Below are positions 2,346 to 30,755 of a stretch of DNA of 33,497 bases, piece by piece. How positions within the stretch are numbered: the stretch's first letter is position 1; each line of letters begins with the position of its first letter. Below the pieces are notes generated by a model. That model was not told where the DNA came from. It did no database searches and saw only the letters and a list, made by a program, of their open reading frames with translations. The translations under genes were made by a program, and so were the position numbers. Where the stretch lies: contig JAKQHE010000278.1 of the NCBI GenBank assembly GCA_029573155.1, positions 1-33,497 of the forward strand, given 5' to 3'. Source of the DNA: a bacterium. Its GTDB lineage: Bacteria > UBP6 > UBA1177 > JAKLFG01.

Positions 2346-2435
2346 ACGATATTATTCGCCTTTCATTCCAAATAGTTACCTAAATATTTCGGAGCACCTG
2401 AATCCTTTAAGCCGCTCGCCGTATCTTATGGGTGT
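2346..2435 (+). repeat. 90-bp direct repeat, left copy (3' gene remnant plus promoter)
   Basis: Bases 2346-2435 match 7925-8014 with three mismatches and no gaps; the last 71 bases (2365-2435 = 7944-8014) are identical. In the right copy the first 30 bases are the last ten codons of the lipoprotein gene ending at 7954. Here the same frame would read TILFAFHSK and stop, but no gene leads into it, so this is an orphan 3' gene tail. The remainder is intergenic DNA and a full copy of the GAATCC/TATCTTATGGG promoter. The two copies bracket a 5.6-kb low-GC block. Confidence 0.95.
2400..2432 (+). promoter_or_regulatory. Promoter motif copy A (GAATCC-N16-TATCTTATGGG)
   Basis: GAATCCTTTA starts at 2400 and TATCTTATGGG covers 2422-2432, with exactly 16 bases between GAATCC and TATC. 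It faces the 785-aa secreted protein gene at 2597, giving a leader of about 160 bases, the longest among the eight motif copies. It lies inside the left direct repeat and is identical to copy B. Confidence 0.8.
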
Positions 2436-2596
2436 CAGTGGGAGAGTTTCTGAAAAGGACGGAAAGCACTTGATGGGTGGTAGCATATCCACATACAAGA
2501 AAGTTGCCTTTTTTTCATTCCATCAGGGGCCTTCGCCTCCGTATCACAAAATTTATCAAACGGACTTTTTACCTTAGAAAATATGGGGAATAAGTT

Positions 2597-4954
2597 ATGA
2601 AAAAGATTTTTGTTGTGGTGATTGTATCTTTTACTTTTAATCTTTTCGCGATAACTGACGGCATTAGATATTGTCAACATATCGATTTAGGGGGATACTG
2701 CACAGACATTACATCAACTCGATTTGATCTAAGCCAGTATACTTGGACTGGTGGAACACCTCAAAATGATAATGTGTCATCAATTCTGGTTATGAGTGGG
2801 TGGGAAGCATGGGTATGCAAAGATGCTAATCACTACGGGGATTGCATGTTTTTGTCCGCAGGCACCTATAACATGACAAATTATGCTGGATGGAATGACC
2901 AAATTAGCTCCATCACCGTTCAACCGACAACATTTTACGAAGCATGGAGCTACTATGGGAAACGAGAATTCGGTGAATCTGGTACCGCGCCGTATGGGTT
3001 TGCCTATGCTTATGCGTGCTTAAATTTTGTTGGGTGCAAAAGGCTATTTTTGAAGTACCCGGACTCGATCTCAAGTCTATCGAATTACATTGTGAAGAAA
3101 AATCAAATAAGATCCATAGAACTTGATGGAAATGTTAAGGCGACATTACACAGGGATGGCTACTCGTCGAAAATTTTGTTCTCATCTCACAAAAACTTTT
3201 CTATAAGCAATTCGATCACACAACAGTATGGTTACCTTAATCTCACAGCTTTTGACCAGACTGTCGATGGCATAATGATATCTATGGCGCCGTCTATTGG
3301 TTTTTTTCAGTCCGAATTAAGGCAAGATTTTTCGGGTTATCCCTACATTCTCGATTTTTATAATGCATATAACTTTGATAACACGACAATTGATGATGCA
3401 AGACATGAGGCGTATGAGGTGAATTTCAGTTTGGGAGTCGCCGATCCGAACTACGGAAGCCAAACTTCAATGGCTCAAAAGGTGTCTTACTATCAGAATG
3501 ATCAATACACCCAACGATACGGGGACAATTATGATTTGCTTGCAATTGCAGCACATGGCACTCTTGATATAATGGACACAGACCCGACAGTCAGAAATCA
3601 TTGGGTGGCTATTAATTCAGATCTATATCCGGAGGATTCGAACCCTTATTGGTACTACAAAAAATACGGCGGCATATTAAAGGGTTGGTATGAAGAACTT
3701 CCTAATTACGTTGAAGGAGCCTACTCGGATTGGTCGAAATATATAGGTACGAAAAGTACTGAATGGGTTTTGGATAGTAGCTGCGGATCGTTTGGCAACC
3801 ACATTGATCAACATCACGGCAACATTTCATGGTCGGAAATACTTGACATCTATGATGGCCCTTCAACAGAAAACGGTATTCTTGATAACCTGCATGGATA
3901 TGGTGGTACCCGAGGAGATTGGTTTTTCTTTGTGGATGATGGAGAATCTCTTGGCGAAGAGTTTTATTTAAATCTGTCTCAATATTCCGTTTCAAGTGCA
4001 TGGGTCGCCTCCTTTGCTCATCTGTGGACATATGTAAGCGGTGTTCTTATGAACCGCGATGCAAGATATCTTACGAAAGAAACATGTGACTGCTCAAGTA
4101 TATTTTGTGTTGCGGCCTACATGAACAACGACCATTTCCACTTATACGGGACAACCCAACCAGACAAAGGATCGCGAGACAATTATCCCTACACTTGTAT
4201 GAGGAGAAATTCTTCCTGGTACTTGTATGATGGTACTCCATATGATCCCTATTTGAAAATGTCATCTTCTGTGCCGTCGGAAGTGGACGGTGGAGTAGAC
4301 GAAACCATTTATATGTCAAAGTCATTCACGGAAAATGATTTTCTAAACATGTTCTATATTAAAAACTATGATTCCTCACAGAAGATCAATCTCGACGAAA
4401 ACGAATATTATTATTTCAACAAAAACAACGGTCATTTTGGATGGGGGAAAAAAGAGGTTGAATCTGTCATTCCGGAAGACGAGACCGGAATTATTTATGA
4501 ATTTGCTTTGAAAGAATCGGCTGGCCTTTTGGAGAAGTGGTATGACTATAAAATGCAACTGGAAAGCGCATCCTTCGAAACCTTGACAGGCATCAAAGAT
4601 GGCGAGCCCTTAAATGAGGTTGCTATTGGCCTGCATCTCATTTATAAGCCCGCGATAAACGGGAAGTTTGTTGATAACAAAAAAATAAAAATGTATTTTA
4701 CCCGTTCTGGTCTGTCAAAGGTGTTTTCGAATGCTCCAAAAGAAATCTTTGTTTCAGAGGAGAATGTTAGAACGAAAGACCATGAAACTATTCTTTCGGA
4801 GATTGCAAGCCAAGAAAAAATGGATAATATGGAAAACTATGAGTACACAGGTATTTACTACATGGATGAGACTGGTACGATCATCCCTGCGGTAAAGTAC
4901 GTGTCAGACAGGAACATCCTTGCGGAGAAGGTGTTGATCATTACCTCGGACTAA
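2597..4954 (+). CDS. Secreted protein with beta/gamma-crystallin motifs and a caspase-like His-Cys (DUF6345-like) region
   Basis: A 785-aa exported protein with a signal peptide (residues 1-18, ending FNLFA). Residues 19-109 form two Greek-key motifs of a beta/gamma-crystallin domain: Tyr/Cys and GG in each motif and the calcium-site signatures NDNVSS (57-62) and NDQISS (100-105). Residues 135-200 may be a second, degenerate pair (NQIRSIEL). Residues 310-480 resemble clan CD peptidases and DUF6345: a hydrophobic strand ending in AAHG (His320), a second strand ending in LDSSCG (Cys396), then LHGYGG and a SSAW segment. The rest is unassigned. Peptidase activity is inference from this layout. 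The gene is clearly more AT-rich than the flanking backbone, which suggests transfer. It is first in a three-gene run, 5 bases before the next gene. GGGGAATAAG precedes the ATG. Confidence 0.75.
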   Translation: MKKIFVVVIVSFTFNLFAITDGIRYCQHIDLGGYCTDITSTRFDLSQYTWTGGTPQNDNVSSILVMSGWEAWVCKDANHYGDCMFLSAGTYNMTNYAGWNDQISSITVQPTTFYEAWSYYGKREFGESGTAPYGFAYAYACLNFVGCKRLFLKYPDSISSLSNYIVKKNQIRSIELDGNVKATLHRDGYSSKILFSSHKNFSISNSITQQYGYLNLTAFDQTVDGIMISMAPSIGFFQSELRQDFSGYPYILDFYNAYNFDNTTIDDARHEAYEVNFSLGVADPNYGSQTSMAQKVSYYQNDQYTQRYGDNYDLLAIAAHGTLDIMDTDPTVRNHWVAINSDLYPEDSNPYWYYKKYGGILKGWYEELPNYVEGAYSDWSKYIGTKSTEWVLDSSCGSFGNHIDQHHGNISWSEILDIYDGPSTENGILDNLHGYGGTRGDWFFFVDDGESLGEEFYLNLSQYSVSSAWVASFAHLWTYVSGVLMNRDARYLTKETCDCSSIFCVAAYMNNDHFHLYGTTQPDKGSRDNYPYTCMRRNSSWYLYDGTPYDPYLKMSSSVPSEVDGGVDETIYMSKSFTENDFLNMFYIKNYDSSQKINLDENEYYYFNKNNGHFGWGKKEVESVIPEDETGIIYEFALKESAGLLEKWYDYKMQLESASFETLTGIKDGEPLNEVAIGLHLIYKPAINGKFVDNKKIKMYFTRSGLSKVFSNAPKEIFVSEENVRTKDHETILSEIASQEKMDNMENYEYTGIYYMDETGTIIPAVKYVSDRNILAEKVLIITSD

Positions 4955-4959
4955 CCAAC

Positions 4960-6447: not shown

Positions 6448-7954
6448 GATAGGTGCATATGTGAGTTTTCTTCTCCTTCTCGTGTGTTGTCTCAGTTGCA
6501 GCGATGGAAAACAGAGTGAAGGCGATACGGATGTCAGTCCATTTGATGGTGATTTTTCGGGAGATCAAGATGGTCCCGATAATGACTCGCTGATCGTGCC
6601 GGAAACACTCGATCATTATTCGCGTAGCAAAAGTCTTACAGCCGGAAGTCCGTACAATGAATTTGTGTTCGATGTGGCAATATCAACCACCAATGGTTCG
6701 CTTTTGCTCTCGGGATTTACAGAAGGGAGTTTTGCCGAGTATGCTATGAAGGACACCATGAAATTATCGCCCAAATGCGAGGGCAGGGAATGCCGCGACA
6801 TGTTCTTGGCCACTGTCTCATCCGATATAATAGAACCTATCGCTCAATTCGGGTGGAACGGAGAAACATATGCGGATGACGAAATCGCGAGCATGCTTGT
6901 TGACGGAAATATGGCGATACTGGGTGGTGCGATCTCGGCCATTGCCAACTGCACCGGTCTTTTTTGTCAGGAAGCGGTGCTGGTTGGATATGATTACAAA
7001 GACAAAGTTGTCAACACCATGCTGTATGAGATGGGAAAAGGATTGATCCCGGATCCAATCGTGAATGTACTTCGACCACCGACCCGCATAACAAGTATGA
7101 CGCACGGAGTTTTTTCGGAGATTTACATCGCGGGGTGGGTTATCGGCGATATATATGGTGATCCCGGACAACTCACCGAGGAATCTTACGGCCAAGATGT
7201 GTTCGTGCGTAAAATCGATACCGCAACATGGGGAAATCGTTGGGTGGTGCAACTTAGGACGCCTCAAAACGAATCGGCAGACGCTATATTCTTGCTGTCG
7301 GATGGCGGAATAGTTGTCGCGGGAACAACGAGAGGAGACATGTGTGCCGGCTCACTGAAAGAAACCGTTGACCGCGATATTTTCTTTGCCCGGTATGATG
7401 GCGACGGGAATCTGCTTTCTTGTCGGCAGGTACTGACCGCCGAAGATGAAATCGTCGGTGCGGCGACTGAATTGAATGGGCGGATCATCCTTATCGGAAC
7501 GCGACGCGCATTCGATGCTCTCTCAAAAGGCTCGGTGGTGATAACAGAGTTTGATCCTGCCGATGATACGACGACAAGCCGCCTCCTACCGGAAACAACG
7601 GGGATCAAAATCTCCGCGGCAACGCAAATGAACCAAAAAGTTTTTCTTGCCGCCGGCGCGGTCGAGCATTGTGTCGTCGATGATAAGGAAAAGGATTTCC
7701 CCTGCCTCGTGATGATACAGATGGACGACACTTATACGGAACTTTCACGGCGCTATTTCGGCCGAAAACAAAATGAAAGGATCGCCAAAGTTATCGTTCA
7801 TGATGATCGCTCCATTTCAATAGTCGGTGATGCTTTGACCATTATACCCGGCGGAAAATCGAACCGCGATATCTGGTATGAAAAGTGGGTGGTGAAAGAT
7901 CAGCTGACCGCTCGGCTACCCGCAACGATATTATCCCCCTTTTATTCCAAATAG
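6440..7954 (+). CDS. Beta-propeller lipoprotein with Asp-rich linker
   Basis: A 504-aa predicted lipoprotein. ATG 6440 was chosen because GGAGGGAG lies 5 bases upstream and the N-terminus is then a proper lipoprotein signal ending at Cys20 (VCCLSC). The residues after Cys20 are acidic (DTD, DGD, DQDGPDNDS), a linker type repeated in other lipoproteins of this window. The body carries degenerate SBBP blades (for example VVAGTTRGD with DIFFARYDGDGNLLSC). It overlaps the upstream gene by 8 bases, so the two are coupled. Its last ten codons (TILSPFYSK plus stop) lie inside the right direct repeat, and a near-copy of this tail survives upstream at 2346-2375. Role unknown; surface-exposed propeller inferred. 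Confidence 0.8.
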   Translation: MNKIGAYVSFLLLLVCCLSCSDGKQSEGDTDVSPFDGDFSGDQDGPDNDSLIVPETLDHYSRSKSLTAGSPYNEFVFDVAISTTNGSLLLSGFTEGSFAEYAMKDTMKLSPKCEGRECRDMFLATVSSDIIEPIAQFGWNGETYADDEIASMLVDGNMAILGGAISAIANCTGLFCQEAVLVGYDYKDKVVNTMLYEMGKGLIPDPIVNVLRPPTRITSMTHGVFSEIYIAGWVIGDIYGDPGQLTEESYGQDVFVRKIDTATWGNRWVVQLRTPQNESADAIFLLSDGGIVVAGTTRGDMCAGSLKETVDRDIFFARYDGDGNLLSCRQVLTAEDEIVGAATELNGRIILIGTRRAFDALSKGSVVITEFDPADDTTTSRLLPETTGIKISAATQMNQKVFLAAGAVEHCVVDDKEKDFPCLVMIQMDDTYTELSRRYFGRKQNERIAKVIVHDDRSISIVGDALTIIPGGKSNRDIWYEKWVVKDQLTARLPATILSPFYSK

Positions 7955-8014
7955 TTACCTAAATATTTCGGAGCACCTGAATCCTTTAAGCCGCTCGCCG
8001 TATCTTATGGGTGT
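7925..8014 (+). repeat. 90-bp direct repeat, right copy
   Basis: This is the partner of 2346-2435 (offset exactly 5579 bases, three mismatches, no gaps, 71 bases identical). It overlaps the 3' end of the upstream lipoprotein gene and carries promoter motif copy B, which drives the signal peptidase gene. Recombination between the two copies would precisely remove genes 2597-7954 and leave one intact promoter. Confidence 0.95.
7979..8011 (+). promoter_or_regulatory. Promoter motif copy B (GAATCC-N16-TATCTTATGGG)
   Basis: GAATCC is at 7979-7984 and TATCTTATGGG at 8001-8011, with the invariant 16-base gap. The start codon at 8044 lies about 33 bases downstream, so the leader would be short. It is identical to copy A because both lie in the direct repeat. 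Confidence 0.85.
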
Positions 8015-8043
8015 TCGTAGGAAAAGGTGAAGAGAGGTGCTTG

Positions 8044-9014: not shown

Positions 9015-9118
9015 GTACGGCGAAATGAGAAAACAAAATCTGGGAAAAAATAAGGGGATGGTAGCGGGATGGCGCGATGGGTTTTTTTGTTTATCAACAC
9101 GAGGGGACCTCCGCTCTC

Positions 9119-9147: not shown

Positions 9148-9192
9148 GAGAAAAAAAGTAAAAACAAAACGACAACAAAAGGAGTGAGCATC

Positions 9193-10042: not shown

Positions 10043-10058
10043 TACAAGGAGACACGAT

Positions 10059-13535: not shown

Positions 13536-15311
13536 ATGGCGAAGAAAGTGAAAGCTGTGGAGACCGCACCCGAAGTAACATTGGAACCACGGCCACGCTT
13601 GTCCAAGCTCATCATCAAAAATTTCCGCTGCATCGGAGCCTCTCCAGTCACGCTTGATCTCGATGATATTGTTGTGCTGGTTGGTCCCAACAATGTCGGC
13701 AAAAGTTCCGTGTTGAAGGCCTATGAAGTAATCATGTCTGAAGGCTCGAACGCAGGACATCTCGCGATAGAGGACTTCCCTTTCGGAAAGGTTGATTCTG
13801 GGGCAGTCCCTGAAATCGAACTCCACACCGTGATATACGACAACAGTCCTGGAGCGGAGTGGATAGCAACGACTTCTTCAGGGGAGAAGTTGGTCAGGGA
13901 ACAGTGGCGTTGGCCAGCACCCGGTACACCGGTTCGCAGAGGTTTTAATGTGAAGGAGAACAGGTGGGCAACCGATGAGGACAGAGAGAAAGTACCATGG
14001 GGTGCTGCTGGTGTTGCGAACTCACGGCGTCCACAGCCGCATCGCGTGGACGCCTTCGCCTCTCCGGACGAGCAGGCAGGTGAAATCGTCAAGCTGCTCA
14101 TGATGGCAATCAAGGACCGCGTAAAGTCCCATCAAGAAAACTCCAAGGAAGACAAGGAATCCGACTTCGCTAAACTTCTCGGGGGCATTGCAGCTCTTCA
14201 GAAGAAGATCGTAGCAGAAAGCGAGGAGCATATTGCCGCCGTTCAGGCGGATCTGTCCGGCTACATTGGTCGCGTTTTCCCCGGCCATCGCGTTGTATTC
14301 GACGCCAAACCCGAAGATGACTTAGACAAAGCCATCAACCTCTTCAAAGCGAATCCTCAACTACTCATGGGACCCGAGGATGGCTTCTTGAGCTCGGTTG
14401 GCCGACAGGGTAGCGGGGCACGACGTACCCTACTCTGGACAGCCATACGCCTATTGGCCGAGACCGGAAAGAAGAAACCAGAGGGCGTACAACGCCCACA
14501 CGTACTCCTCCTTGACGAGCCAGAGATATGCCTGCACCCAAGCGCGGTTAGGGAAGCATGCGATCTGCTCTACGGCTTGCCGGGCATCACTGGTAACTGG
14601 CAGGTCATGGTCACGACACACTCCCCTTGCTTCGTAGACTTTGCCCGAGATCACACCTCTATTGTCCGTGTCGAAAGAAGAGAGGACGGCCAAATCACAG
14701 GAACTACCATCTTCCGCCCTGAAAGAGCAATGTTCGACGGAACGGACAAGGAGTGCCTGAAATTGCTGAATCTCTGTGATCCATACGTTGCGGAGTTTTT
14801 CTTCGGAGGGCGAACCATCATCGTTGAAGGAGATACGGAGTACACAGCATTCAAGCATGCGATTGCTGCAGCCCCGAAGAAATACGAGGGTGTCCATGTT
14901 GTCCGCGCACGCGGCAAGGCGACAATTGTCTCGCTCTGCAAAATACTGAACCAGTTCGGGGCACCCTATTCTGTTCTGCACGACAGTGATCGTCCAACGT
15001 ATGTGAAGAATGAGAAAGAGTCGGCAAATCCGGCCTGGGCGCTGAATGACTCGATCCGGATCGAGATGGCGAAGTGCCCAGGGCCAACGAGGATGGTCGC
15101 CTCCGTTCCGAACTTCGAGGGCGCATACCTTGGAGAGGAGGCCAAGACCGACAAACCGTACAATGTCTTAAGCTCGCTCAAGGCGGATTCAGCGATCTTG
15201 ATGACCGTGTCGGAATTGCTTGATGCCTTGCTGGACTTCGATAAACCACTACCTCATGGTGCTGTTTCATGGAAGAATCTTGACGAGTTAAAGGCATCCT
15301 TAAATGACTAA
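13536..15311 (+). CDS. OLD-family ATP-dependent endonuclease (ATPase plus TOPRIM)
   Basis: A 591-aa protein. The N-terminal ABC/SMC-type ATPase has Walker A GPNNVGKS (50-57), a signature-like GRQGSGARR, Walker B LLLDEP (324-329) and the His switch TTHSP. The C-terminal TOPRIM domain has VEGDTEY (Glu431, Asp433) and HDSDRP (Asp483, Asp485), so catalytic residues are intact. OLD proteins are single-protein (class 1) or paired with a UvrD-like helicase (class 2, GajA); no helicase is adjacent here. Many act against phage; that role is inference. Base composition is less GC-rich than the backbone. Only a weak ribosome site (AGGG) precedes the ATG. Upstream direct repeats suggest regulated expression. 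The downstream partner is a small WYL protein. Confidence 0.9.
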   Translation: MAKKVKAVETAPEVTLEPRPRLSKLIIKNFRCIGASPVTLDLDDIVVLVGPNNVGKSSVLKAYEVIMSEGSNAGHLAIEDFPFGKVDSGAVPEIELHTVIYDNSPGAEWIATTSSGEKLVREQWRWPAPGTPVRRGFNVKENRWATDEDREKVPWGAAGVANSRRPQPHRVDAFASPDEQAGEIVKLLMMAIKDRVKSHQENSKEDKESDFAKLLGGIAALQKKIVAESEEHIAAVQADLSGYIGRVFPGHRVVFDAKPEDDLDKAINLFKANPQLLMGPEDGFLSSVGRQGSGARRTLLWTAIRLLAETGKKKPEGVQRPHVLLLDEPEICLHPSAVREACDLLYGLPGITGNWQVMVTTHSPCFVDFARDHTSIVRVERREDGQITGTTIFRPERAMFDGTDKECLKLLNLCDPYVAEFFFGGRTIIVEGDTEYTAFKHAIAAAPKKYEGVHVVRARGKATIVSLCKILNQFGAPYSVLHDSDRPTYVKNEKESANPAWALNDSIRIEMAKCPGPTRMVASVPNFEGAYLGEEAKTDKPYNVLSSLKADSAILMTVSELLDALLDFDKPLPHGAVSWKNLDELKASLND

Positions 15312-15394
15312 TCGACATTCAACCAAAACCATGGAAGCCGTGCCTCATGGCTAATGTTAGATATCCACAAATAGAAACATAAGGAGAAGTTCTC

Positions 15395-15688
15395 ATGAAC
15401 CAAAGTGTGATTGAAGAAGCAATTCGAACCAAAGCAATCATTGAGTTCTACTACTCAAGTCATCACCGAGTAGTTGAACCACATGTCTTGGGTATTCACA
15501 CCGGAATCATCCAATTACTTGGATACCAAATTGATGGAAGCAGCAGTTCCGGCAAGCTCCCAGAATGGAGAAGATTTGATCTCAATAGAATGAGCAATAT
15601 CCAGATAACGGATAAAAAGTTTTCTGGTCAGAGACCGTCTGGTCATCACAGCTCATGGGATCGCACCATACTTGTCGTAGATGATTAA
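15395..15688 (+). CDS. Small WYL-domain protein
   Basis: A 97-aa protein that is essentially a bare WYL-type ligand-sensing domain. Residues 10-29 read IRTKAIIEFYYSSHHRVVEP (Arg25 and Glu28-Pro29), then LGYQIDG (42-48), WRRFDLNRM (58-66) and a basic tail FSGQRPSGHHSSWD. These are the conserved points of the WYL fold, which binds nucleic acid or nucleotide ligands and often controls defence loci. No helix-turn-helix is present, so it would need a partner or act as a ligand sensor. AAGGAG lies eight bases before the ATG. It follows the OLD gene by 83 bases and shares its lower GC content. Confidence 0.75.
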   Translation: MNQSVIEEAIRTKAIIEFYYSSHHRVVEPHVLGIHTGIIQLLGYQIDGSSSSGKLPEWRRFDLNRMSNIQITDKKFSGQRPSGHHSSWDRTILVVDD

Positions 15689-15830: not shown

Positions 15831-16238
15831 ATGACCGACGACATCACCAAACGCGACCGTGACGATGTGATATTCGACAAGCGGCGCGACACCCGCATCG
15901 GCGCCGAATTCACGGTGTCGTTCGAGTTGGCGGCGGAGGGGCCGCACAAATTCTTCACCGGCATCACGCAGGACATCAGCAAGGGCGGCATCTTCCTTTC
16001 CACCCTGCAGACACTCCCCATCGGGACCAAGATGAAGATCGCCTTCGCGGTGGAGGGGCGGAACATCAACGCACAGGCGGAGGTCCGCTGGGTCCGCGGA
16101 CCGGAGGCGTCCGACTCGATGGGCGTCACCCCCGGGATGGGCCTGCGTTTCGTCGATATCGCCGAGGAGGATCGCGTCTACATCGACGCCTATGTGAAAG
16201 AGAAAGAGACCATCTATTACGACGACGAGGAGAAATAA
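15831..16238 (+). CDS. PilZ-domain cyclic-di-GMP receptor
   Basis: A 135-aa single-domain protein. The two binding motifs of PilZ are intact: RRDTR (18-22, RxxxR) and DISKGG (48-53, D/NxSxxG). The rest (EVRWVRGP, PGMGLRFVDI) follows the pattern of the PilZ paralogues abundant in myxobacteria. It is expected to bind cyclic-di-GMP in the cytoplasm and relay it to a partner protein. It has a good ribosome site (GGAGGG) and its own sigma70-type promoter. It converges on the HD-GYP gene with only 15 bases between stops. A second-messenger hydrolase and a receptor are therefore next to each other, although separately transcribed. Confidence 0.92.
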   Translation: MTDDITKRDRDDVIFDKRRDTRIGAEFTVSFELAAEGPHKFFTGITQDISKGGIFLSTLQTLPIGTKMKIAFAVEGRNINAQAEVRWVRGPEASDSMGVTPGMGLRFVDIAEEDRVYIDAYVKEKETIYYDDEEK

Positions 16239-17342: not shown

Positions 17343-20130
17343 GGGCATCCTCCGTCAGTTCGAGCAGGGTCTCGTAGGAAAAATCGTCCACCAGCGCGCG
17401 GAGCCGGTCGGCGACCGGCCGATCCCCCTCCCCCAGCGAGCCGAGAAGCCGCAGCATCTCCCCGGTATCGCCTTTGACGACCGCCGCGTGAAGTTCGCGC
17501 CGTATCGCGTCGGGGACCCGGAGCGGCGCCTCGCTCACGCCCGGCGGCGGGACCGCGGGGGGACGGGGCTCTTCCGCGACCGGCGCGGGGTCGCACGGGA
17601 TATCGAGCGCCTTCATGACGGCGTCGCACAACTCCTCTTCGCGGAACGGCTTGCGGATGAAACCGGTCGCCCCGGCGGCCAGCATCTCGCGCCGGGTCTC
17701 TTCGAGCGGGTCCGCCGTTATGACGATGATGGGTATCGTCTTCCCCTCGGGGCTTTCCCGTATCCGGCGTATCGCCTCCCTCCCGTCCATCTCGGGCATC
17801 TGCAGGTCCATGAAGACCAGATCGGGCCGCCATTTCCAGAACACCGCGATGGCCTCGCGCCCGTCCTTCGCCTCGTGGGTGATGAAGCCGCCCTCGGTGA
17901 GCAGTATCCGCAGGATATCGCGGTTGGACGCGTTGTCGTCCACGATGAGCACCTTGTAGAGGAGCCCGGGCGGCAGCCGCTTCATCGGCGACCGGGTCCG
18001 CGCGGTCGCGGCCGCCGCGGTCGCCGGCAGGGCCCGGAAGGAGAACGACACGACGGTGCCGCGCCCCGGTTCGCTCCGCGCCGAGAGCGTCCCTTCCATC
18101 AGGGAGGCGAACTGTTTGCTGAGGGTGAGCCCGAGCCCGGTGCCGCCGCTCCGCGCCCCGCTGCCGGTCTGTTCGAACGGGTCGAACATCCGCGACAGTT
18201 CTTCGGGCGTCATGCCCGGGCCGGTATCGGCGACCTCCACCGTTATCAGGTGATCGTTGCCGTAGAAGGTGGGGCCGTCGTCCCGCACTAAGAGCGTTAT
18301 CCCGCCCCGTTTGGTGAACTTCATCGCGTTGCCGACGAGATTGATGAGCACCTGACGCACCTTTATCGCGTCGGCGTTGATGTAACGCGGGATGGCGCCG
18401 TCCTGCCGCACCTCGAAGCGCAGCCCCTTCTCGACCGCCTGCGGGAGGAACATGTCGCGGAGGTCGGCGAGCAGTCGCGGCAGGTCCAGATCGACGGGGT
18501 TGAGCGTGATGCGGCCCGCCTCTATCTTCGACAGTTCGAGTATCTGGTTGATGAGGTCGAGCAGGTGTTCGCCGCTGCGCAGGACGGTCGAAAGATGCTC
18601 GCGCTGGATGCCGGTGAGCGGCTCGGAACGACGGAGCAACTGCACATAGCCGAGTATCGCGTTCATCGGGGTCCGTATCTCGTGGCTCATGCTGGCGAGA
18701 AAGATGCTTTTGGCCTTGCTCGCCCGTTCCGCCTCGGTCCGCGCCTCGCGCAGCCGCCGGTTCGCCTCCTCGAGTTGCGCGGTCCGTTCCCGCACCCGCT
18801 CTTCGAGCAGTTCCTTCATCTCCTGAATATCCGTTTCGGCCCGCCGCCGGTCGCTGATGTCGCGGACGATCATGAAGACCGCCTCCTCGCCGCTTCTCAC
18901 CAGACGCATCTCGTGACAGCGGACCGTCTCGCCGCTTTCCTCCTCGTATTCGATCGACCGTATCTCGTCGGTCAGGAGCGTCATCGCGAGCGCGGTCTCG
19001 AGTTTTTCGGCGAACTCGGGCGAGAACACCGCGGAGATGTGGCGGCCCAGCAGTCTTTGGGGCGGCGCGAACAGGAGCATCGGGTCGTTCGCGTGATAGT
19101 CGAGGAACACCCCGTCGCGGCTTATCAGGAAGATCAGGTCGGGCACCGACCGCAGGATCGCCGCGGAGCGCGCCGTGCTTTCGCGCAGTTCCCCCTCCGC
19201 CCGTTCGCGGTCGGTGATGTCGCGGACGAATGCGCCGACCCCGAGCCCCCCCTCCCGGAGCGGGACCGGGAATTTCCGGACCTCGTAGACGCGGTCCCCG
19301 ACCTTTTCATGGTAGGCCATATCCTTTTTCGTCCGCAGGACCTCCTGATCGGACCGGAGGTAACGGAGAGCCGTCTCTTCCGGCAGAAGATCGAGGTCGC
19401 GTCTCCCGAGAAGGTCGCCTTCCTTCTTCCCGAGGAACGCGCACTGCGCCCTGTTGGCCATGAGATACCGCCCCCCGGCGTCCTTGAGCGTCACGATGTC
19501 GGCGGTGGCGTCGAAAAAGGTGCGGAAACGCTCCTTGTGCTTTCGCAGGTCCTCGACAAGCCGGAGCCGCGACACATCGTCCGAAAGTATCCTGCCGACC
19601 AGCGCGGTCACCAGCGGCGCGGCGAACAGGAAGACCGCGCCGACCCGTTTGATGGCGAGCAGAGCGATGTCGAAGGGGAGCGTGTAGAGCAGAAGCAGGG
19701 ACGCGACATGGACGAGCAGGCCGAAGAACAGGAGCCGGTCGGTCCCTATCGGCGCCTCGCGGTCGGACCGTCGCAGATAAAAAAGGGCGCCGAGGACCGT
19801 CGAGAGGAGTATGATCAGTATCTCGGTGAGCAGGGTATCGTCGCCCCCCCGCAGGAGTCGCGCCGCCACCGCCATGCCGCCCCCGATCGTACCGGCGACC
19901 GGACCGAAGAAGAGCCCGCAGAGACTGAGCACGATGGAGCGGCCGTCGAAGACCAGCCCGTCGCCGAGCGCCAGCGGGGCCAGCATCCCGACGCCCGCCG
20001 CGCAGCCGAAGATAAGGCCCTGCAGGACCGCGCCGGACCGTCGCCACAGCCAGCGTTGACTCACGAAACCGGAGGCGGTGCTGAGCGCCACCAGCAACGC
20101 GAGATGGTAGATGACCCCGACGCCTATCAT
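17335..20130 (-). CDS. Hybrid histidine kinase (LytS-like 5TM, two PAS, HisKA-HATPase, receiver)
   Basis: A 931-aa membrane sensor. Residues 1-180 hold several transmembrane segments with the FGP..G...GG and R....G pattern of the 5TM/LytS-like module. PAS domains lie at about 203-312 and 322-432, joined by a coiled coil (430-475). The HisKA site is SHEIRTPMN with His483. The ATPase domain has NLVGNAMKF (N box), DTGPGM and GGTGLGL. A receiver domain follows (VLIVDD near 727-732, Asp775 in FMDLQMPEMDG, RKPF). The C-terminus after 845 is short and may be a degenerate Hpt or a linker. It is a complete phosphorelay start whose signal is unknown. GAGG precedes the ATG. It is the third gene of the operon driven by promoter copy H. 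Confidence 0.93.
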   Translation of the reverse strand: MIGVGVIYHLALLVALSTASGFVSQRWLWRRSGAVLQGLIFGCAAGVGMLAPLALGDGLVFDGRSIVLSLCGLFFGPVAGTIGGGMAVAARLLRGGDDTLLTEILIILLSTVLGALFYLRRSDREAPIGTDRLLFFGLLVHVASLLLLYTLPFDIALLAIKRVGAVFLFAAPLVTALVGRILSDDVSRLRLVEDLRKHKERFRTFFDATADIVTLKDAGGRYLMANRAQCAFLGKKEGDLLGRRDLDLLPEETALRYLRSDQEVLRTKKDMAYHEKVGDRVYEVRKFPVPLREGGLGVGAFVRDITDRERAEGELRESTARSAAILRSVPDLIFLISRDGVFLDYHANDPMLLFAPPQRLLGRHISAVFSPEFAEKLETALAMTLLTDEIRSIEYEEESGETVRCHEMRLVRSGEEAVFMIVRDISDRRRAETDIQEMKELLEERVRERTAQLEEANRRLREARTEAERASKAKSIFLASMSHEIRTPMNAILGYVQLLRRSEPLTGIQREHLSTVLRSGEHLLDLINQILELSKIEAGRITLNPVDLDLPRLLADLRDMFLPQAVEKGLRFEVRQDGAIPRYINADAIKVRQVLINLVGNAMKFTKRGGITLLVRDDGPTFYGNDHLITVEVADTGPGMTPEELSRMFDPFEQTGSGARSGGTGLGLTLSKQFASLMEGTLSARSEPGRGTVVSFSFRALPATAAAATARTRSPMKRLPPGLLYKVLIVDDNASNRDILRILLTEGGFITHEAKDGREAIAVFWKWRPDLVFMDLQMPEMDGREAIRRIRESPEGKTIPIIVITADPLEETRREMLAAGATGFIRKPFREEELCDAVMKALDIPCDPAPVAEEPRPPAVPPPGVSEAPLRVPDAIRRELHAAVVKGDTGEMLRLLGSLGEGDRPVADRLRALVDDFSYETLLELTEDAHD

Positions 20131-20137
20131 GCCGACC

Positions 20138-21007
20138 TCACCGCACCGCCAAAAGACCGCAACGCGCCGCCAACACCGGCTCGAGAAGACGCAGAAGCCC
20201 CTGCGCCCGCAGCAGGTCGGCCCGGTCGAACAGGAGCGCGACCGTCTTGTCGCTCAGGTTGAGCACGCCGACGGTCTTTCCGTACAGTTTGATGGGCACG
20301 ATGAGGAAATAGTCCTTGGCGTACGCGTCGAGTTTCTTCTTGAACCGGGGGTAGTTCAGGATATCCTCGCAGAAGAGCGGTTCCCCGCTCTCCATGACGC
20401 TCCACGCCGGCGAGGCGTGGTCGTAGGGCACCTCGATGCCCGCGATGGCCCGGTTGGTCGCCGCCTCGACGATGAGATTGCCCCACCGGTTGACCAGCAT
20501 GAGCGAGCCCTTCTGGGCGAACAGCAGGTCGAGCATCGCCCGCAACGCGGGATCGAGAGCGCCGCCGAAGGTGGCGCCGGGCGCCGAAAAGGGGGCGACG
20601 ACCGCGCCGTGGAGACGGAGGAGATCCTCTTGGGACCGCGCGCGCCGCAACCGGTCGAACAGGCGGGCGACGCGGGGGAGGAGCGACGGGAGGAGCGTCC
20701 GTTCCAGCGGGAGGTATTTGTAGGGGAACCGTACCGTACTGAGCCGCGCGTCGATGACGGAAGGCGGGGTCGTGACGACGATCGTGGGGAGGAAATTGAA
20801 CAGACAGGAATTGTGGAATTCGATGAGGTCGAGGATCGCGTGATAGTCCTCCTCGACGACGAAGAGGGTGTCGTACACGCGGCAGTTGTTGATGACGGCG
20901 TCCAGATGCACCGGTCGGGTATGGTGGCCGGCGGCCTGCGCCGCCGCGGAGACCTTCTGCTCGAACGCGTGGTCGCGCAACGCGAGATGTATGCACAGGC
21001 GGTTCAT
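20138..21007 (-). CDS. GAF-domain protein with degenerate receiver-like N-terminus
   Basis: A 289-aa soluble protein. Residues about 140-280 look like a GAF domain (LDLLFAQKGSLMLVNRWGNLIVEAA, the segment GEPLFCEDILNYPRF, then FLIVPIKLYGKTVGVLNLSDK). The first 125 residues show alternating strands and helices of receiver-like size but lack a convincing phospho-acceptor pattern, so it is at best a pseudo-receiver. GAF domains bind small ligands or act as docking modules. It overlaps the upstream small gene by 4 bases (ATGA) and lies 7 bases before the kinase start, so it very probably acts with the kinase, perhaps as an accessory sensor. The exact role is inference. Confidence 0.75.
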   Translation of the reverse strand: MNRLCIHLALRDHAFEQKVSAAAQAAGHHTRPVHLDAVINNCRVYDTLFVVEEDYHAILDLIEFHNSCLFNFLPTIVVTTPPSVIDARLSTVRFPYKYLPLERTLLPSLLPRVARLFDRLRRARSQEDLLRLHGAVVAPFSAPGATFGGALDPALRAMLDLLFAQKGSLMLVNRWGNLIVEAATNRAIAGIEVPYDHASPAWSVMESGEPLFCEDILNYPRFKKKLDAYAKDYFLIVPIKLYGKTVGVLNLSDKTVALLFDRADLLRAQGLLRLLEPVLAARCGLLAVR

Positions 21008-21369
21008 ACCCCGGCGCCGGAAAGGTGGTTCTTGTCGCGGCCATCCCGGTGCGACGGATCGTCGGTCGGCGGTCGCGGCGGTTCCTGCTCACCGAGCGTT
21101 CCCCGGAACTCATGATAGTCGAGGAGGGCCCGTTCGTAGGCCTCTCCGGGAGAATCGGCATATTCGAAGAAAAAAGAGCGGAAGAAGGAATTGAACGATC
21201 GGTCCCCCGCCTGTTTGAGCAACTCCGTCTGCAGGTCGTCCGACCAGCCGACCTTCCGCACCACCAGCCCGCGCCGGTCGTCCTTGTCGCAGATGCGGAA
21301 ATGGCCGGCCCCCCGCCGTTCGGTCACCAGCGTAACGATGCTCCGGAAGAGATAGAAAGGTCCTTGCAT
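21004..21369 (-). CDS. Small conserved-looking protein, first gene of the signalling operon
   Basis: A 121-aa protein I do not recognise. Residues 1-90 are structured in appearance (FYLFRSIVTLVTERRGAGHF, then KDDRRGLVVRKVGW, LQTELLKQAGDRSFNSFFRSFFFEYADSPGEAYERALLDYHEF); the last 30 are polar and probably disordered. It has no signal peptide or membrane segment. The start has AAGGAG six bases upstream and promoter copy H just before that. It is coupled by an ATGA overlap to the GAF gene. As the promoter-proximal gene of a kinase operon it may be a regulator or adaptor of the pathway. Confidence 0.7.
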   Translation of the reverse strand: MQGPFYLFRSIVTLVTERRGAGHFRICDKDDRRGLVVRKVGWSDDLQTELLKQAGDRSFNSFFRSFFFEYADSPGEAYERALLDYHEFRGTLGEQEPPRPPTDDPSHRDGRDKNHLSGAGV

Positions 21370-21395: not shown

Positions 21396-21427
21396 TTATA
21401 AGATACCGGCCGGGGACGAAAGGATTC
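21396..21427 (-). promoter_or_regulatory. Promoter motif copy H
   Basis: On the minus strand GAATCC (21427-21422) is followed after 16 bases by TATCTTATAA (21405-21396). It lies 26 bases before the start codon of the signalling operon. The -10 half diverges from the consensus only at its last two positions. Confidence 0.8.
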
Positions 21428-21483: not shown

Positions 21484-21515
21484 GAATCTTTTCACTCCGC
21501 TCCCGTATCTTATGG
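21484..21515 (+). promoter_or_regulatory. Promoter motif copy C
   Basis: GAATCT (21484-21489), 16 bases, TATCTTATGG (21506-21515). The Mor-like activator gene begins at 21544. Copies C and H are about 60 bases apart and diverge, so one intergenic region drives both the signalling operon and the activator. Confidence 0.85.
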
Positions 21516-21927: not shown

Positions 21928-21960
21928 GAATCCTTTTTCCCCCTACCGGTATCATAGGGG
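21928..21960 (+). promoter_or_regulatory. Promoter motif copy D
   Basis: GAATCC (21928-21933), 16 bases, TATCATAGGGG (21950-21960). It precedes the secreted PDZ-like protein gene at 22028. The -10 half has two changes from the consensus, the most divergent of the eight copies. Confidence 0.75.
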
Positions 21961-25194: not shown

Positions 25195-25219
25195 GCCTTT
25201 ACCTCCGAATAGTGAATTC

Positions 25220-25247
25220 CGGGGAGAAGGGTTTATCCTCCTCCCCG
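25220..25247 (-). promoter_or_regulatory. Intercistronic stem-loop (11 bp with one G-U pair)
   Basis: In the minus-strand transcript CGGGGAGGAGG pairs with CCTTCTCCCCG around a 6-base loop (ATAAAC); the single non-Watson-Crick position is G-U. No U-run follows. It ends 25 bases before the LRR lipoprotein start codon and mirrors the hairpin at 10007-10042 in both position and C/G-rich composition. Confidence 0.75.
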
Positions 25248-25259
25248 TAAACGAAAAGG

Positions 25260-26327: not shown

Positions 26328-26460
26328 GGTCATTCTCCCATAGTGTTGTTTTTCTCTTTTTGTCAAGCACTCGGTTTTGCTTACGATTTCTGTTCGGCGG
26401 CCCTCGGGATTTAAATACCGCACAACACCGTATGCCCATTTAACAACATCCTCCCTTCCG

Positions 26461-26494
26461 CCCCATAAGATACGGCATCGGAAGAAAAGGATTC
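26461..26494 (-). promoter_or_regulatory. Promoter motif copy G
   Basis: On the minus strand GAATCC (26494-26489) is followed after 16 bases by TATCTTATGGGG (26472-26461), a perfect consensus. It faces the PDZ-like/LRR operon and lies back-to-back with the ECF sigma gene. Confidence 0.88.
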
Positions 26495-26593
26495 GGGGTA
26501 AAAAGAAAAAACTTGAACGGGCGCGAAGAACCGGTATTATCGGCGGACGGTACGGCAGGGTGTCGTCATCGGAGCGGGAAACGGGATAACCGA

Positions 26594-27160
26594 TTGGATA
26601 TTCAAGATAAAGACCGCAACGATGAAAAGGCGCTCCTCGAACGGGCGCGCCGCAGCGATGTCGCCGCCTTCGAGACGCTCGTCCGTTCGCACGAAGACAA
26701 ATTGTTCTCGTTCGCCCTCTCCATCACCGGCGGAAAGGACGAGGCGGCGTACGAGATACTACAGGAGACGCTCATTCGCGCCTATCGCGGCATCGCCTCC
26801 TTCCGGGGCGACTGCGCGTTCCCCAATTGGCTGTGGCGGATACTGAAGAACAACTTCGAACGCTACAAGGACCGCGAACATGCGTGGGAGGGGAAGAGGA
26901 AGGGGCCCGGCGACACCCTTGAGGTCTCCACCGAGGAACAGGCCATCCACGAGGAGCGGCTGACCAACATCCGGCAACTCATCTCCCTGCTGAGCATCGA
27001 CGATCAGGAAACGCTTAACCTCATAGAATTCCAGAAGTTATCGCTCGAAGAGGCGGCCGCGCTGACCGGCATATCGATCGAGGCCTTCAAGTCGCGACTC
27101 CACCGGGCCCGGGAGCGGCTCGCGCGGTCGGTGAAAAAAAATAAGAATCTTTTTCTCTAG
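26594..27160 (+). CDS. ECF-type RNA polymerase sigma factor
   Basis: A 188-aa sigma factor from the TTG at 26594; an alternative in-frame TTG at 26513 would add 27 unconserved residues. Neither has a strong ribosome site, so the start is uncertain. Region 2 spans about 26-92 (FETLVRSHEDKLFSFAL, EILQETLIRAYRGIASFRG, FPNWLWRILKN) and region 4 about 130-182 (LLSIDDQETLNLIEFQKLSLEEAAALTGISIEAFKSRLHRAR). There is no region 3, as expected for the ECF group. The downstream gene encodes a zinc-type anti-sigma factor. Promoter copy F overlaps the 3' end of this gene and copy G lies back-to-back upstream. I infer that this factor reads the GAATCC-N16-TATCTTATGG motif. No copy of the motif points into the sigma gene itself. 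Confidence 0.9.
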   Translation: MDIQDKDRNDEKALLERARRSDVAAFETLVRSHEDKLFSFALSITGGKDEAAYEILQETLIRAYRGIASFRGDCAFPNWLWRILKNNFERYKDREHAWEGKRKGPGDTLEVSTEEQAIHEERLTNIRQLISLLSIDDQETLNLIEFQKLSLEEAAALTGISIEAFKSRLHRARERLARSVKKNKNLFL

Positions 27161-27178
27161 ACGATGTATCTTATGGGG
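27145..27178 (+). promoter_or_regulatory. Promoter motif copy F, driving the anti-sigma operon
   Basis: GAATCT (27145-27150), 16 bases, TATCTTATGGGG (27167-27178). The -35 half lies inside the last codons of the sigma gene and the -10 half lies between its stop and the anti-sigma start at 27196. If the sigma factor uses this site, it activates its own inhibitor. Confidence 0.88.
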
Positions 27179-27195
27179 TGACCAAGGAGAAGGCC

Positions 27196-27921
27196 ATGGA
27201 CGAACGGTGCCGACGGATTGACGAGTTACTGACCGACGCGATGACGCGGGAACTTTCTCCCGAAGAGCGCGCGATCCTCGATGACCATTGCGCCGCCTGC
27301 CCCTCCTGCGCCGGACAGTACCGCGCCCTCACCGCGGTGCGCGAGACCCTGCGGCGGCACCGCCCCGAGGATGACGCCCTTTCCGAGGATATGCGCGCCG
27401 CGCTCCACCGGCGGCTGGTCGAAGAGTCGGCCCGGCCGGAACGGGCCGTCGGCGCTCTGCCGTTCGGTCCCCGCTGGAAACTTGCCGGCGCGATGTTCGC
27501 CCTTATCATGCTGACGCTCTGCCTGTTCTCCTTCCTCGCGACGATCCCCGACGGGGCCGACGAAGGGACCGTCGTTTCACGCTCGGTCGTCAACGCCGGC
27601 GAGCCGCTCACCATCCGGCTGACCTATACCGCCGACCGGTCGCTCGCCGATGTCCGGGTAACGGTCCAACTGGACGACGGCGTATTTTTCCATACCGACG
27701 ACGAAACGCTCCGGCGCCTGAAGGAATATGTCTGGAAAGGCGACCTGAAGGAAGGGAGGAACGAGATACCCTTCGTGGTGGAGGTGGCCCGGACCGGCAC
27801 CCACCGCATCCGTACCGCCGCCGCGTACGACGGGATGCTGCACCGGCACGAGGTCGAACTGCAGGCCGGGCCGGGGACCGTCGCCGTCATCTACCGTTCC
27901 TTCCCGGAAAGACCGTTATGA
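27196..27921 (+). CDS. Membrane anti-sigma factor with zinc-binding (ZAS-like) domain
   Basis: A 241-aa protein. ATG 27196 is preferred because AAGGAG lies six bases upstream; the GTG at 27178 falls within the promoter. Residues 31-38 give HCAACPSC, the His-x3-Cys-x2-Cys motif of zinc-containing anti-sigma domains. One transmembrane segment follows (96-117, LAGAMFALIMLTLCLFSFLATI). Residues 120-241 would be outside the membrane and look like a beta-sandwich sensor (EPLTIRLTYTADRSLADVRVTVQLDDGVFF). It should hold the ECF sigma at the membrane until an envelope signal releases it. It overlaps the next gene by 4 bases, so anti-sigma and envelope genes are coupled. Confidence 0.9.
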   Translation: MDERCRRIDELLTDAMTRELSPEERAILDDHCAACPSCAGQYRALTAVRETLRRHRPEDDALSEDMRAALHRRLVEESARPERAVGALPFGPRWKLAGAMFALIMLTLCLFSFLATIPDGADEGTVVSRSVVNAGEPLTIRLTYTADRSLADVRVTVQLDDGVFFHTDDETLRRLKEYVWKGDLKEGRNEIPFVVEVARTGTHRIRTAAAYDGMLHRHEVELQAGPGTVAVIYRSFPERPL

Positions 27922-28457
27922 GACGCCTCGGCGTCGCGGCGCTCCTGCTGGTCCCCCTGTTCTTCCTGTACGCGGGGAAGAAAGATACGCTCAAGAGCGA
28001 CATCACGGTCGAACCGGGCGTGTACAAAAAAGGGTGGGAACGGGACTTTTTCCGCGACCTTCCGCCGCATGACCCGCCGGAAGAGAGCACCGACGCCGTG
28101 CCGGTATCTCCCGATGCCGATGCGATGAACCACCGGCGCGCCGTAACGGCCCCCCGCAGGATGCCGACACCGACCGTCACCCCGGAACCGGTCGTCGAAC
28201 CGGCACCCGGCCCCGCCACGACGAACCCCGAAGAAAAGGGTCTCGACGATACTCCGCCCCCTCCGCATGAGGAACGGCGGGCGCCGCGCCGACCGCCGGA
28301 ACCGGTCATCCTGCCCGACCTGCCCCCGGAGGAAAAGACACCTCCCGCAACCGGGACGCCCGCCGCCGATCCGGAAAAGAAACGGAAAGAGCGGCTCCGG
28401 GAACTGGAGAATAAACGGAAAAAAGGGAATTTCCGTGATCCGAAGATCACTTATTAG
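27918..28457 (+). CDS. Proline-rich single-pass membrane or exported protein
   Basis: A 179-aa protein with an N-terminal hydrophobic segment (RLGVAALLLVPLFFLYAG) that is either an uncleaved anchor or a signal. The rest is rich in Pro, Glu and Arg (PTPTVTPEPVVEPAPGP, PPPPHEERRAPRRPPEP) and ends in a basic helix (KKRKERLRELENKRKK). This is the make-up of a periplasm-spanning linker, as in TonB-like or wall-spanning proteins, but no TonB C-terminal domain is present. It is coupled to the anti-sigma gene (ATGA) and overlaps the barrel-like gene by 23 bases. It may carry a signal between the outer membrane and the anti-sigma factor; this is inference from position only. Confidence 0.72.
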   Translation: MRRLGVAALLLVPLFFLYAGKKDTLKSDITVEPGVYKKGWERDFFRDLPPHDPPEESTDAVPVSPDADAMNHRRAVTAPRRMPTPTVTPEPVVEPAPGPATTNPEEKGLDDTPPPPHEERRAPRRPPEPVILPDLPPEEKTPPATGTPAADPEKKRKERLRELENKRKKGNFRDPKITY

Positions 28458-29436
28458 TCTGCTTCTCCTCTGCTCGGTCGCGCGCGGGGTCGAGACCTCG
28501 TGGGAAGGGCAGGTGGCCGTCGGCGCGAAGTACAACAGCAATGTCGAGTATCTCTACCTCATCGACCGTCTTTCGGGCGATGATCTGCCGCGCAAAGAGG
28601 CGTTCTTCGCGCTCCTGAACGGCGATGTATCCCTTGTCATCGGCGAGGAGTACACCGGCAAGATCGGGTACTCGCTCGTCTCGGAATCGGGACTCGACCG
28701 GCCCGAACTCTCGCGGTTCGACCAGTATATCGCCGGGAGTTTCTCCCATCTTTTCGATGACGCGCTCCTGCTCGACTGTTCGCTGGTGCTCCATCACGCC
28801 GCCGAACGGTGGCCGGTACCGCGACAACTTTCCATCGACCTGTTCGGCTGGGTCACCGTGCTGTACGACCTTAACGAGCATTTCTCCCCGTATGGCTCCG
28901 CGCGGTTCGGGTACTATCACGACATAGACCCGTTCGGCGACCGGCGGCTCGACTATTTCCGGGGTCCGGCGGGGGGTGTCGAAGGCGGGTGGTACATCTA
29001 CCCGGCGGCCGACACCAGTTACCTCAAAACGGGGACCGGGCTGGACCTGAACTGGCTGCGCGACGAAGAATACGATCGCTTTACCGACCGGACGGGCGAT
29101 GTGTTGGGGGTCAGCAACAAGCACCTGCGCATCACGGCGCTGGTGGAGGGGGCCTTCGTCGACGAACGCGTCACCGCAGCGGTCGCGCTCCGGTATGTCT
29201 ATCAGTACTGGCTCGGCGTCGACATGTTCCGATACCTTGACTGGGAAAAACGGCGCATCGAACACACCATCTACCTGCAACCAGAACTCGAGTACCGGTT
29301 CCTCGAACATTACGCGGTCCGGGTGACCGGCAGCGTCATGCGAAAACTATCCAACATCGGCGAGCATAGAGATGATTACACCGATTATTCGTTCCTTCAG
29401 TTCACCGGGGCGGCCTCTTTCTCTTACACTTTTTAG
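28435..29436 (+). CDS. Outer-membrane beta-barrel-like protein
   Basis: A 333-aa protein from GTG 28435, chosen because AAGGGAA lies upstream and the N-terminus is then a signal peptide (IRRSLISLLLLCSVARG). The mature part is a series of amphipathic strands rich in Tyr, Asp and Gly (VAVGAKYNSNVEYLYL, YTGKIGYSLVSESG, YGSARFGYYHD, LQPELEYRFLEHYAVRVTGSV) and ends in the aromatic FSYTF, as expected of outer-membrane barrels recognised by the BAM machinery. The family cannot be named. It overlaps both neighbours, so it is one transcriptional and translational unit with the anti-sigma gene. It could be the envelope component whose state is sensed, or merely a regulon member. Confidence 0.75.
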   Translation: MIRRSLISLLLLCSVARGVETSWEGQVAVGAKYNSNVEYLYLIDRLSGDDLPRKEAFFALLNGDVSLVIGEEYTGKIGYSLVSESGLDRPELSRFDQYIAGSFSHLFDDALLLDCSLVLHHAAERWPVPRQLSIDLFGWVTVLYDLNEHFSPYGSARFGYYHDIDPFGDRRLDYFRGPAGGVEGGWYIYPAADTSYLKTGTGLDLNWLRDEEYDRFTDRTGDVLGVSNKHLRITALVEGAFVDERVTAAVALRYVYQYWLGVDMFRYLDWEKRRIEHTIYLQPELEYRFLEHYAVRVTGSVMRKLSNIGEHRDDYTDYSFLQFTGAASFSYTF

Positions 29437-30700
29437 TGCGATCGCCGCCCTGTGCATAGCCTGCGAAGCGCCGGTGCGCATCGAGATGGATGCGATGCTT
29501 TCCCCCGCCGACGCCGCCGATCGGGATGAAGCGGCGACGCCCGACGGCGATATCCTCGTCTCCCTCGTCACCGGCGGCGGCGCCGGCATTGACCGCGGCA
29601 CGGCGATACTCGATGCGGGTGACGGGGCGATCGTGTTGGGCGGCGTCACCGACGGGGAACTCGAACCGGGTAAAAAGAAGGGGGGGATCGATATGTTCCT
29701 CGCCCGGTACGAGGCCGACCGTTCGCGTGCGTGGCTCCGTCAGATCGGGAGCGGCGGCGACGACACCCTGACCGCCGTGGCGCGCGACGCAGAAGGGGCG
29801 CTCTACGCCGTCGGTCATACTTACGGCGCGCTGGGGGGAACGGCCTACGGCAAGGCCGACATCGCGGTCGCCAAGTTCGACGCCGACGGCGCACCGATAT
29901 GGATAAAACAGTTCGGCTCCGCCGAGGAGGACCGTGCTTTTTCAGCCGTTGCTATCGGCACAACGCTCTATGTCGGCGGTTCGACCACCGGGAAATTCCT
30001 GCCGGGCACCGTGCCGCAACAGGAGGATGGCTTCATCGTCGAGATCGACCCCGACGGTAATATCGTCCGTTCGACGCTTATCGGCAGTGAGGGGGTCGAC
30101 CGGGTCACGGCGCTGTTCCCCGGCGCGGCCGACACCCTCTACGCGGCCGGGACCACGACCGGCGCGATCCACGGCAACGGTTCGTTCGGCAATACCGACG
30201 GTTTTCTCGCGAATTACGATCTGTCCTTGGAACGGCGCTGGACCCGGCAGGTCGGCACCTCCGAAGCCGACATGATGATCACGGGGGTCGCCGGGCCGGA
30301 GAACATACTGCTCGCCGGGATGACCTTCGGATCGTTCGACGACGAGATAAACGCGGGGAACTACGACGCGCTCCTGCTCGCGTTCGACCTGAACGGCGAC
30401 CGCCTGTTCAGCCGCCAGCACGGCAACGACGGTCCCGACGCGTTCCACGGCATCGCCGTCGCCCCCGACGGATCGATCGTCGCCACCGGCTCATCGTTCG
30501 GCCCGGTATTTTCGCAACCGGCGACGGGCGGGTATGAGATCATTACGGTCCGGTACGACCGCTCCGGCCGCCTGCTCGACACCCTGCAGTACGGCTCCGC
30601 CGGGGATGACGGCGCGTACGCCGCGGTCGCGAACGGCGCCGGCGCGACGCTTACCGGGGTCGTTGACATGAATTATTTCCTTATGGATATCAAATGGTAA
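29372..30700 (+). CDS. Beta-propeller lipoprotein (SBBP repeats)
   Basis: A 442-aa protein with a long basic-start signal and a lipobox-like end at Cys31 (ALCIAC). About seven SBBP blades follow from residue 65, for example RQIGSGGDDTLTAV, VGHTYGALGG, KQFGSAEEDRAFSAV, RQVGTSEADMMITGV and LQYGSAGDDGAYAAV, each with a D.F/A....D..G strand. This is the same repeat as in the 908-aa lipoprotein at 10059-12785 but with backbone-like GC content. It overlaps the barrel gene by 65 bases and starts at an ATG with only a weak ribosome site, so coupling is likely. It is the last gene of the anti-sigma operon. A surface location is inferred. Confidence 0.8.
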   Translation: MITPIIRSFSSPGRPLSLTLFSAIAALCIACEAPVRIEMDAMLSPADAADRDEAATPDGDILVSLVTGGGAGIDRGTAILDAGDGAIVLGGVTDGELEPGKKKGGIDMFLARYEADRSRAWLRQIGSGGDDTLTAVARDAEGALYAVGHTYGALGGTAYGKADIAVAKFDADGAPIWIKQFGSAEEDRAFSAVAIGTTLYVGGSTTGKFLPGTVPQQEDGFIVEIDPDGNIVRSTLIGSEGVDRVTALFPGAADTLYAAGTTTGAIHGNGSFGNTDGFLANYDLSLERRWTRQVGTSEADMMITGVAGPENILLAGMTFGSFDDEINAGNYDALLLAFDLNGDRLFSRQHGNDGPDAFHGIAVAPDGSIVATGSSFGPVFSQPATGGYEIITVRYDRSGRLLDTLQYGSAGDDGAYAAVANGAGATLTGVVDMNYFLMDIKW

Positions 30701-30721
30701 CCGTTTTTTTCGCCCGGACCG

Positions 30722-30755
30722 GAATCCTTTTGCCCGCGCCGGGTCTCTTATGGGG
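30722..30755 (+). promoter_or_regulatory. Promoter motif copy E
   Basis: GAATCC (30722-30727), 16 bases, TCTCTTATGGGG (30744-30755), one change from the consensus -10 half. It precedes the 631-aa secreted protein gene by 28 bases. Confidence 0.85.

Follow-up and report, generated by a model that had tools for sequence, protein, structure and literature searches.

Near-identical ECF-type promoters most likely connect surface and secreted-protein genes to a sigma factor encoded among them in the candidate phylum UBP6

We found eight near-identical start signals that most likely switch on genes for surface and secreted proteins via a dedicated sigma factor of the stress type, whose gene lies among them. 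The repeated element is, with high confidence, a promoter of the ECF (group IV) sigma type. The signals lie in a stretch of 33,497 nucleotides (hereafter the window), which is the whole of contig C225 and accounts for 1.25% of the assembly of its genome (G000; 2.69 Mb in 288 contigs). For comparison, we used five genomes of the family (G000–G004), among which G001 belongs to the same genus as G000. The ECF regulon and its promoter motif are apparently undescribed, and a literature search for the motif itself returned nothing specific. Switches of this kind are well known, but this one occurs in UBP6, a phylum without cultured members. This candidate phylum was reported from methanogenic reactors (PMC7382037).

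The preliminary description of the window had listed eight copies of the motif with a gap of exactly 16 bases between GAATCY and TATC, each lying 20–170 bases before a correctly oriented gene start. All eight were present at the places given, the gap was exactly 16 bases in each (the second box reads TCTC at 30722), and every copy lay 21–167 nt before a gene start on the same strand. The sites and the genes behind them are as follows.

2400..2430 (+), ECF-type promoter GAATCCTTT-N12-GTATCTTATG before the gene of an exported 785-aa protein (2597), which starts 167 nt downstream; in copy 1 of a 71-bp repeat
7979..8009 (+), ECF-type promoter identical to the copy at 2400, before a signal-peptidase-like gene (about 8041); in copy 2 of the 71-bp repeat
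21397..21427 (-), ECF-type promoter before a kinase operon running from 21369 down to 16254
21484..21514 (+), ECF-type promoter before a Mor-like HTH gene (21544), forming a divergent pair with the site at 21427
21928..21958 (+), ECF-type promoter TATCATAGG before the gene of an exported 379-aa protein (22028)
26464..26494 (-), ECF-type promoter before the gene of an exported protein (26423/26390-25260), followed by 25194-23122
27145..27175 (+), ECF-type promoter lying across the 3' end of the sigma gene, before the anti-sigma gene (27196)
30722..30752 (+), ECF-type promoter GTCTCTTATG before the gene of an exported 631-aa protein (30783)

The copies were not all independent. Positions 2365-2435 and 7944-8014 form a perfect 71-bp direct repeat that holds the sites at 2400 and 7979, and the eight copies therefore represent seven independent sites. 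The long -10 text TATCTTATGGG was exact in four copies (2400, 7979, 26494 on the minus strand and 27145), and the variant texts were TATCTTATGGT (21484), TATCTTATAAG (21427, minus strand), TATCATAGGGG (21928) and TCTCTTATGGG (30722). The two repeat copies bracket a 5.5-kb stretch of 40–50% GC in a contig that elsewhere reaches 65–69% GC; this stretch resembles an acquired group of three genes for exported proteins, with a copy of the promoter on either side.

Among the genes behind the sites, the signal-peptidase-like gene matched TIGR02228 below the cut-off of that model. The kinase operon (16254-21369, minus strand) encodes a 121-aa protein, a 289-aa ORF, a hybrid histidine kinase with a 5TM sensor and a response regulator that carries an HD-GYP-like motif. 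A PilZ gene (15831-16238) adjoins this operon, and a gene for an OLD-family ATPase/TOPRIM nuclease is located at 13536-15688, followed by a short WYL-domain ORF.

A scan of the whole genome, as the preliminary description had proposed, was run with GAATCYTTT-N13-TATCTTATG at up to 3 mismatches, and 13 matches were obtained, compared with 0 for the reversed pattern used as a control. Eight of the 13 were located in the 33-kb contig. We took this genome-wide search with the full motif as decisive. Applied to the window only, the looser pattern GAATCY-N16-TATC, allowing 1 mismatch, was just moderately above chance (9 found versus 4.6 expected). When the spacer was left free (N8-20, 13 spacings), all 24 exact matches in G000–G004 had a spacer of N13, and the controls gave 0. 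The preliminary description had held that a motif occurring without bias towards gene starts would speak against a promoter. Such a bias was evident here: a position 15–170 nt before a start on the same strand is true of only 5.8% of the position/strand combinations in the window, versus 8/8 sites. In G003, whose genome is 65% complete, no site rose above the control level.

The -35 box reads GAATCYTTT (-35 to -27, the first G being -35) and the -10 box reads GTATCTTA with a C at -10. This C (C26), the position of predicted melting, was present in 29/29 distinct sites, a count to which the search pattern itself partly contributed. Further, a GR dinucleotide occurred at the predicted +1, ten bases after the -10 C, in 21 of 32 distinct sites; the GR columns played no role in site selection. 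The element thus combines a bipartite motif with a near-fixed spacer, a conserved -10 base of the kind that is often C in ECF promoters, a purine at the predicted start and a bias towards gene starts, and a paralogous ECF module shows promoters of the same geometry, all of which agrees with the ECF-type assignment made earlier. The -35 core at these sites is GAATC and not of the AAC type, which excludes the classical AAC subtype only, since ECF motifs vary (the paralogous module B has GRAAC). Readings of the boxes as AAC-type or as TATAAT were rejected on conservation. The boxes had also been called unusually long and conserved. Stringent boxes and rigid spacers are an established trait of ECF promoters (PMC6411747, PMC3817407); because ECF sigma factors demand these, boxes of this length are not odd in themselves.

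The operon in which the sigma factor is encoded comprises the following features.

26512..26539 (+), housekeeping-type promoter TTGAAC-N16-TATTAT before the sigma gene; counterparts in G004 and G001 align with it
26594..27160 (+), ECF sigma factor (sigma2 + sigma4), from TIGR02937, PF04542/PF08281 and PDB relatives
27196..27921 (+), membrane anti-sigma factor with zf-HC2, an HxxxCxxC zinc-finger-type N-terminus and an extracytoplasmic C-terminal domain
27918..28457 (+), small exported or anchored Pro-rich protein
28438..29436 (+), outer-membrane beta-barrel of about 14 strands, from the predicted structure and Foldseek
29372..30700 (+), SBBP beta-propeller lipoprotein (NF047494, 2e-36, below the cut-off of that model)
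30783..32678 (+), exported 631-aa protein, the last gene of the module, with its own promoter

The sigma factor scored 72.9 bits against TIGR02937 (cut-off 42.9), and its PDB relatives include SigH, RpoE and SigW. As in ECF sigma factors, its domains are sigma2 and sigma4 only (PF04542, PF08281/PF04545), besides an overlapping HTH model (DUF134), and a cognate anti-sigma factor is encoded next to it. This anti-sigma factor combines zf-HC2, with the H..C..C conserved, with a hydrophobic stretch and an extracytoplasmic domain; the curated anti-sigma models NF052375 and NF052368 matched below cut-off. AlphaFold2 modeled the barrel with a pLDDT of 79.5, and Foldseek related it to CymA, OmpG and FadL (E about 1e-8 to 1e-7); the structure model of the 631-aa product of the last gene was poor (pLDDT 53) and was set aside. 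For the sigma gene, a TTG start at 26513 was rejected, as it falls inside the gene's own promoter. For the anti-sigma gene, a GTG start at 27178 was rejected, as it precedes the predicted +1; the ATG at 27196 has AAGGAG upstream.

No GAATC site was detected upstream of the sigma gene, that is, no sign of positive autoregulation. Note that autoregulation is not a required feature of ECF sigma factors, since around 55% of those with predicted targets are autoregulated (PMC8103513). The codons KNLF of the sigma gene form the -35 box of the promoter at 27145, and a site occupies the same position before the anti-sigma gene in G004 (C67:4254). A K/N-x-LF tail is common at the ends of the ECF sigma factors of this order, and in the sigma allele of the window the tail codons (27130-27160) also serve as the -35 box for the promoter of the anti-sigma gene. 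A literature search for internal anti-sigma promoters returned nothing specific.

The sigma gene of this operon occurs in two forms, allele A in G000 and G004 and allele A' in G001 and G002. In G001, the barrel (93% identical to that of G000) and the genes on either side of the sigma locus (the preceding SDR gene, 92%; the following gene, 94%) are well conserved, versus 54% for the sigma factor, 48% for the anti-sigma factor and 50% for the last gene. The allele A' sigma factor of G002 is 49% identical to that encoded at 26594. In the sigma tree, G001 grouped with G002, apart from its congener G000, and a topology holding G000 and G001 together was rejected for both the sigma and the anti-sigma factor (p-AU 0.0005 for each). 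Sigma groups B and C, by comparison, follow the genera. Further, G001 lacks at the same locus the 24 kb of 2357-26507 of the window, which hold six of the eight sites; a short segment carrying a GTACC site and a lipoprotein gene takes their place.

The promoter of the last gene reads GGAATCCTTTT.. in G000, GGAATCTTTT.. in G004 and GTACCTTTT.. in G001 and G002, so that the same place carries GAATC with allele A and GTACC with allele A'. This pattern suits a promoter and a sigma factor that change together, although few promoters bear on it: a single position compared across four genomes and an additional GTACC site in G001. A genome-wide search for the exact GTACC -35 gave one match in G001, and the pattern with 3 mismatches remained at the control level.

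The paralogous modules A', B and D hold a sigma factor, an anti-sigma factor and a barrel as the module at 26594 does, and A' and B also share the Pro-rich protein, the beta-propeller lipoprotein and a last-gene promoter of the same geometry. In module B, this promoter has other letters (GRAACTTCT..GGTCTAT, in three genomes), and the TC core of the -10 box is kept. The -35 positions 2 and 4 read A..T in the window module, T..C in A' and R..A in B. Sigma factor, anti-sigma factor and module promoter may form exchangeable specificity alleles (A reading GAATC and A' reading GTACC) that have moved together between close relatives at a single conserved operon for envelope signalling while the barrel and the flanking genes stayed; we regard this as possible and rather doubtful. 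A sister species, G001, shows a strongly diverged sigma factor together with altered letters in a matching start signal, and the A, A' and B pairs, with the same geometry and different -35 letters, provide a natural experiment on the evolution of ECF promoter specificity.

The reader of the GAATC sites is probably the ECF sigma factor encoded at 26594-27160, as had been proposed. It is favored because the sites cluster around it, the anti-sigma gene and the last gene carry sites, and the promoter of the last gene changes with the sigma allele. In G004 (C67), four sites surround the orthologous sigma gene, located before the anti-sigma gene, the ortholog of the 22028 gene (56% identical), the ortholog of the 30783 gene and a response-regulator operon of related genes. 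Two Mor-like orthologs in G002 (C4 and C43) are likewise downstream of a site. The proposal is not thereby settled, because relatives with another sigma allele still carry GAATC sites, 3 in G001 and about 9 in G002, which precede genes for lipoproteins, Mor-like proteins and large exported proteins. Since these genomes lack allele A, a second sigma factor may share the motif. Reading of both motifs by A', reading of GAATC by another ECF sigma factor, or survival of the sites as relics would each explain the GAATC sites of G001 and G002.

The persistence of GAATC sites beside allele A' supports the idea that the promoters are read mainly by another ECF sigma factor, such as that of group C (C128 in G000), which occurs in each of the five family genomes and lacks a site-bearing target nearby; the cluster around 26594 would then be its target or be shared by two sigma factors. 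We consider this unlikely. The sigma gene at 26594 is surrounded by 8 of the 13 sites of the genome, and, judging from module B and from the comparison of A with A', the last gene of a module appears to be read by the module's own sigma factor. Further, G003 possesses group C but shows no site, within the limits of its incomplete assembly. Near the ECF groups C and E-H, we detected no sites with a gene start behind them.

It is far less probable that the sites are housekeeping sigma70 promoters, with TATCTT as a poor TATAAT (a 4/6 match) and GAATCYTTT as an activator site at -35, perhaps that of the Mor-like protein, whose gene is among the targets. The rigid spacing speaks against such a pair, the -10 box conserves GT-TC--A including the C rather than TATAAT (only the TC core being kept in module B), and proper sigma70-type promoters occur beside the sigma genes. 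Lastly, the 71-bp duplication and one class of sites in relatives that sits in longer similar sequence recall a dispersed repeat whose copies precede genes by happenstance, a notion that hardly deserves weight and is largely refuted by the unrelated flanks and spacers of the other sites, in which both boxes are constant, and by the retention of the boxes at orthologous targets across genera.

With the sigma factor at 26594 as the reader, we propose the following mechanism. The sigma factor is probably made constitutively, as its gene is preceded by a housekeeping-type promoter rather than by a GAATC site, and would be held by the membrane anti-sigma factor (27196). An envelope signal would free it, perhaps via the co-encoded beta-barrel and beta-propeller lipoprotein. 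Domain sigma4 would then read GAATCYTTT and sigma2 the -10 box with melting at its invariant C, and transcription would start about 10 nt past this C, at the GR dinucleotide. The freed sigma factor would turn on the exported proteins, the signal-peptidase-like gene, the Mor-like regulator and the kinase/HD-GYP operon. It may also turn on its own anti-sigma factor from the promoter in the 3' end of the sigma gene, as a negative feedback.

Escherichia coli RpoE and Mycobacterium tuberculosis SigH resemble this system in the sigma2-sigma4 protein, the membrane or zinc-finger-type anti-sigma factor, the stringent -35 and -10 boxes with rigid spacing and the key -10 base, and RpoE also shares envelope targets. 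In contrast to both, whose -35 is GGAACTT/GGAAYA, the -35 here is GAATCYTTT, the sigma gene itself has no site upstream, and the anti-sigma gene has its own sigma-type promoter within the sigma gene. The FecI/FecR/FecA system likewise has a sigma gene that is not visibly autoregulated and an outer-membrane barrel in the operon. However, that barrel is a 22-strand TonB-dependent receptor, whereas the operon at 26594 encodes a predicted CymA/OmpG-like channel of about 14 strands and an anti-sigma factor with a zf-HC2-like domain.

Several further observations concern the sites in relatives. Many sites of G002 and G004 are less than 700 bp from contig ends. One class of GAATC sites (L084:14419, L088:5635 and L101:6434) has an A-tract directly upstream and a repeated housekeeping-like promoter, TTGATT-N17-TATATT, about 40 nt downstream. 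Several sites in different genomes (L103, L088 and L097) have a dispersed repeat like GGGCGATCACGAGGATCGCCCCTACA nearby. The orthologous promoters L104:1126 and L108:5568 are identical in G000 and G001, and a different lipoprotein gene follows directly in G001, within about 0.6 kb of extra sequence. Finally, a promoter of another flavor, GGAACTTTTT..GTATCCTA, precedes orthologous lipoprotein genes in G001 and G000 (L199:4249, minus strand, and L241 near 1127, minus strand) and is perhaps a target of the module D sigma factor.
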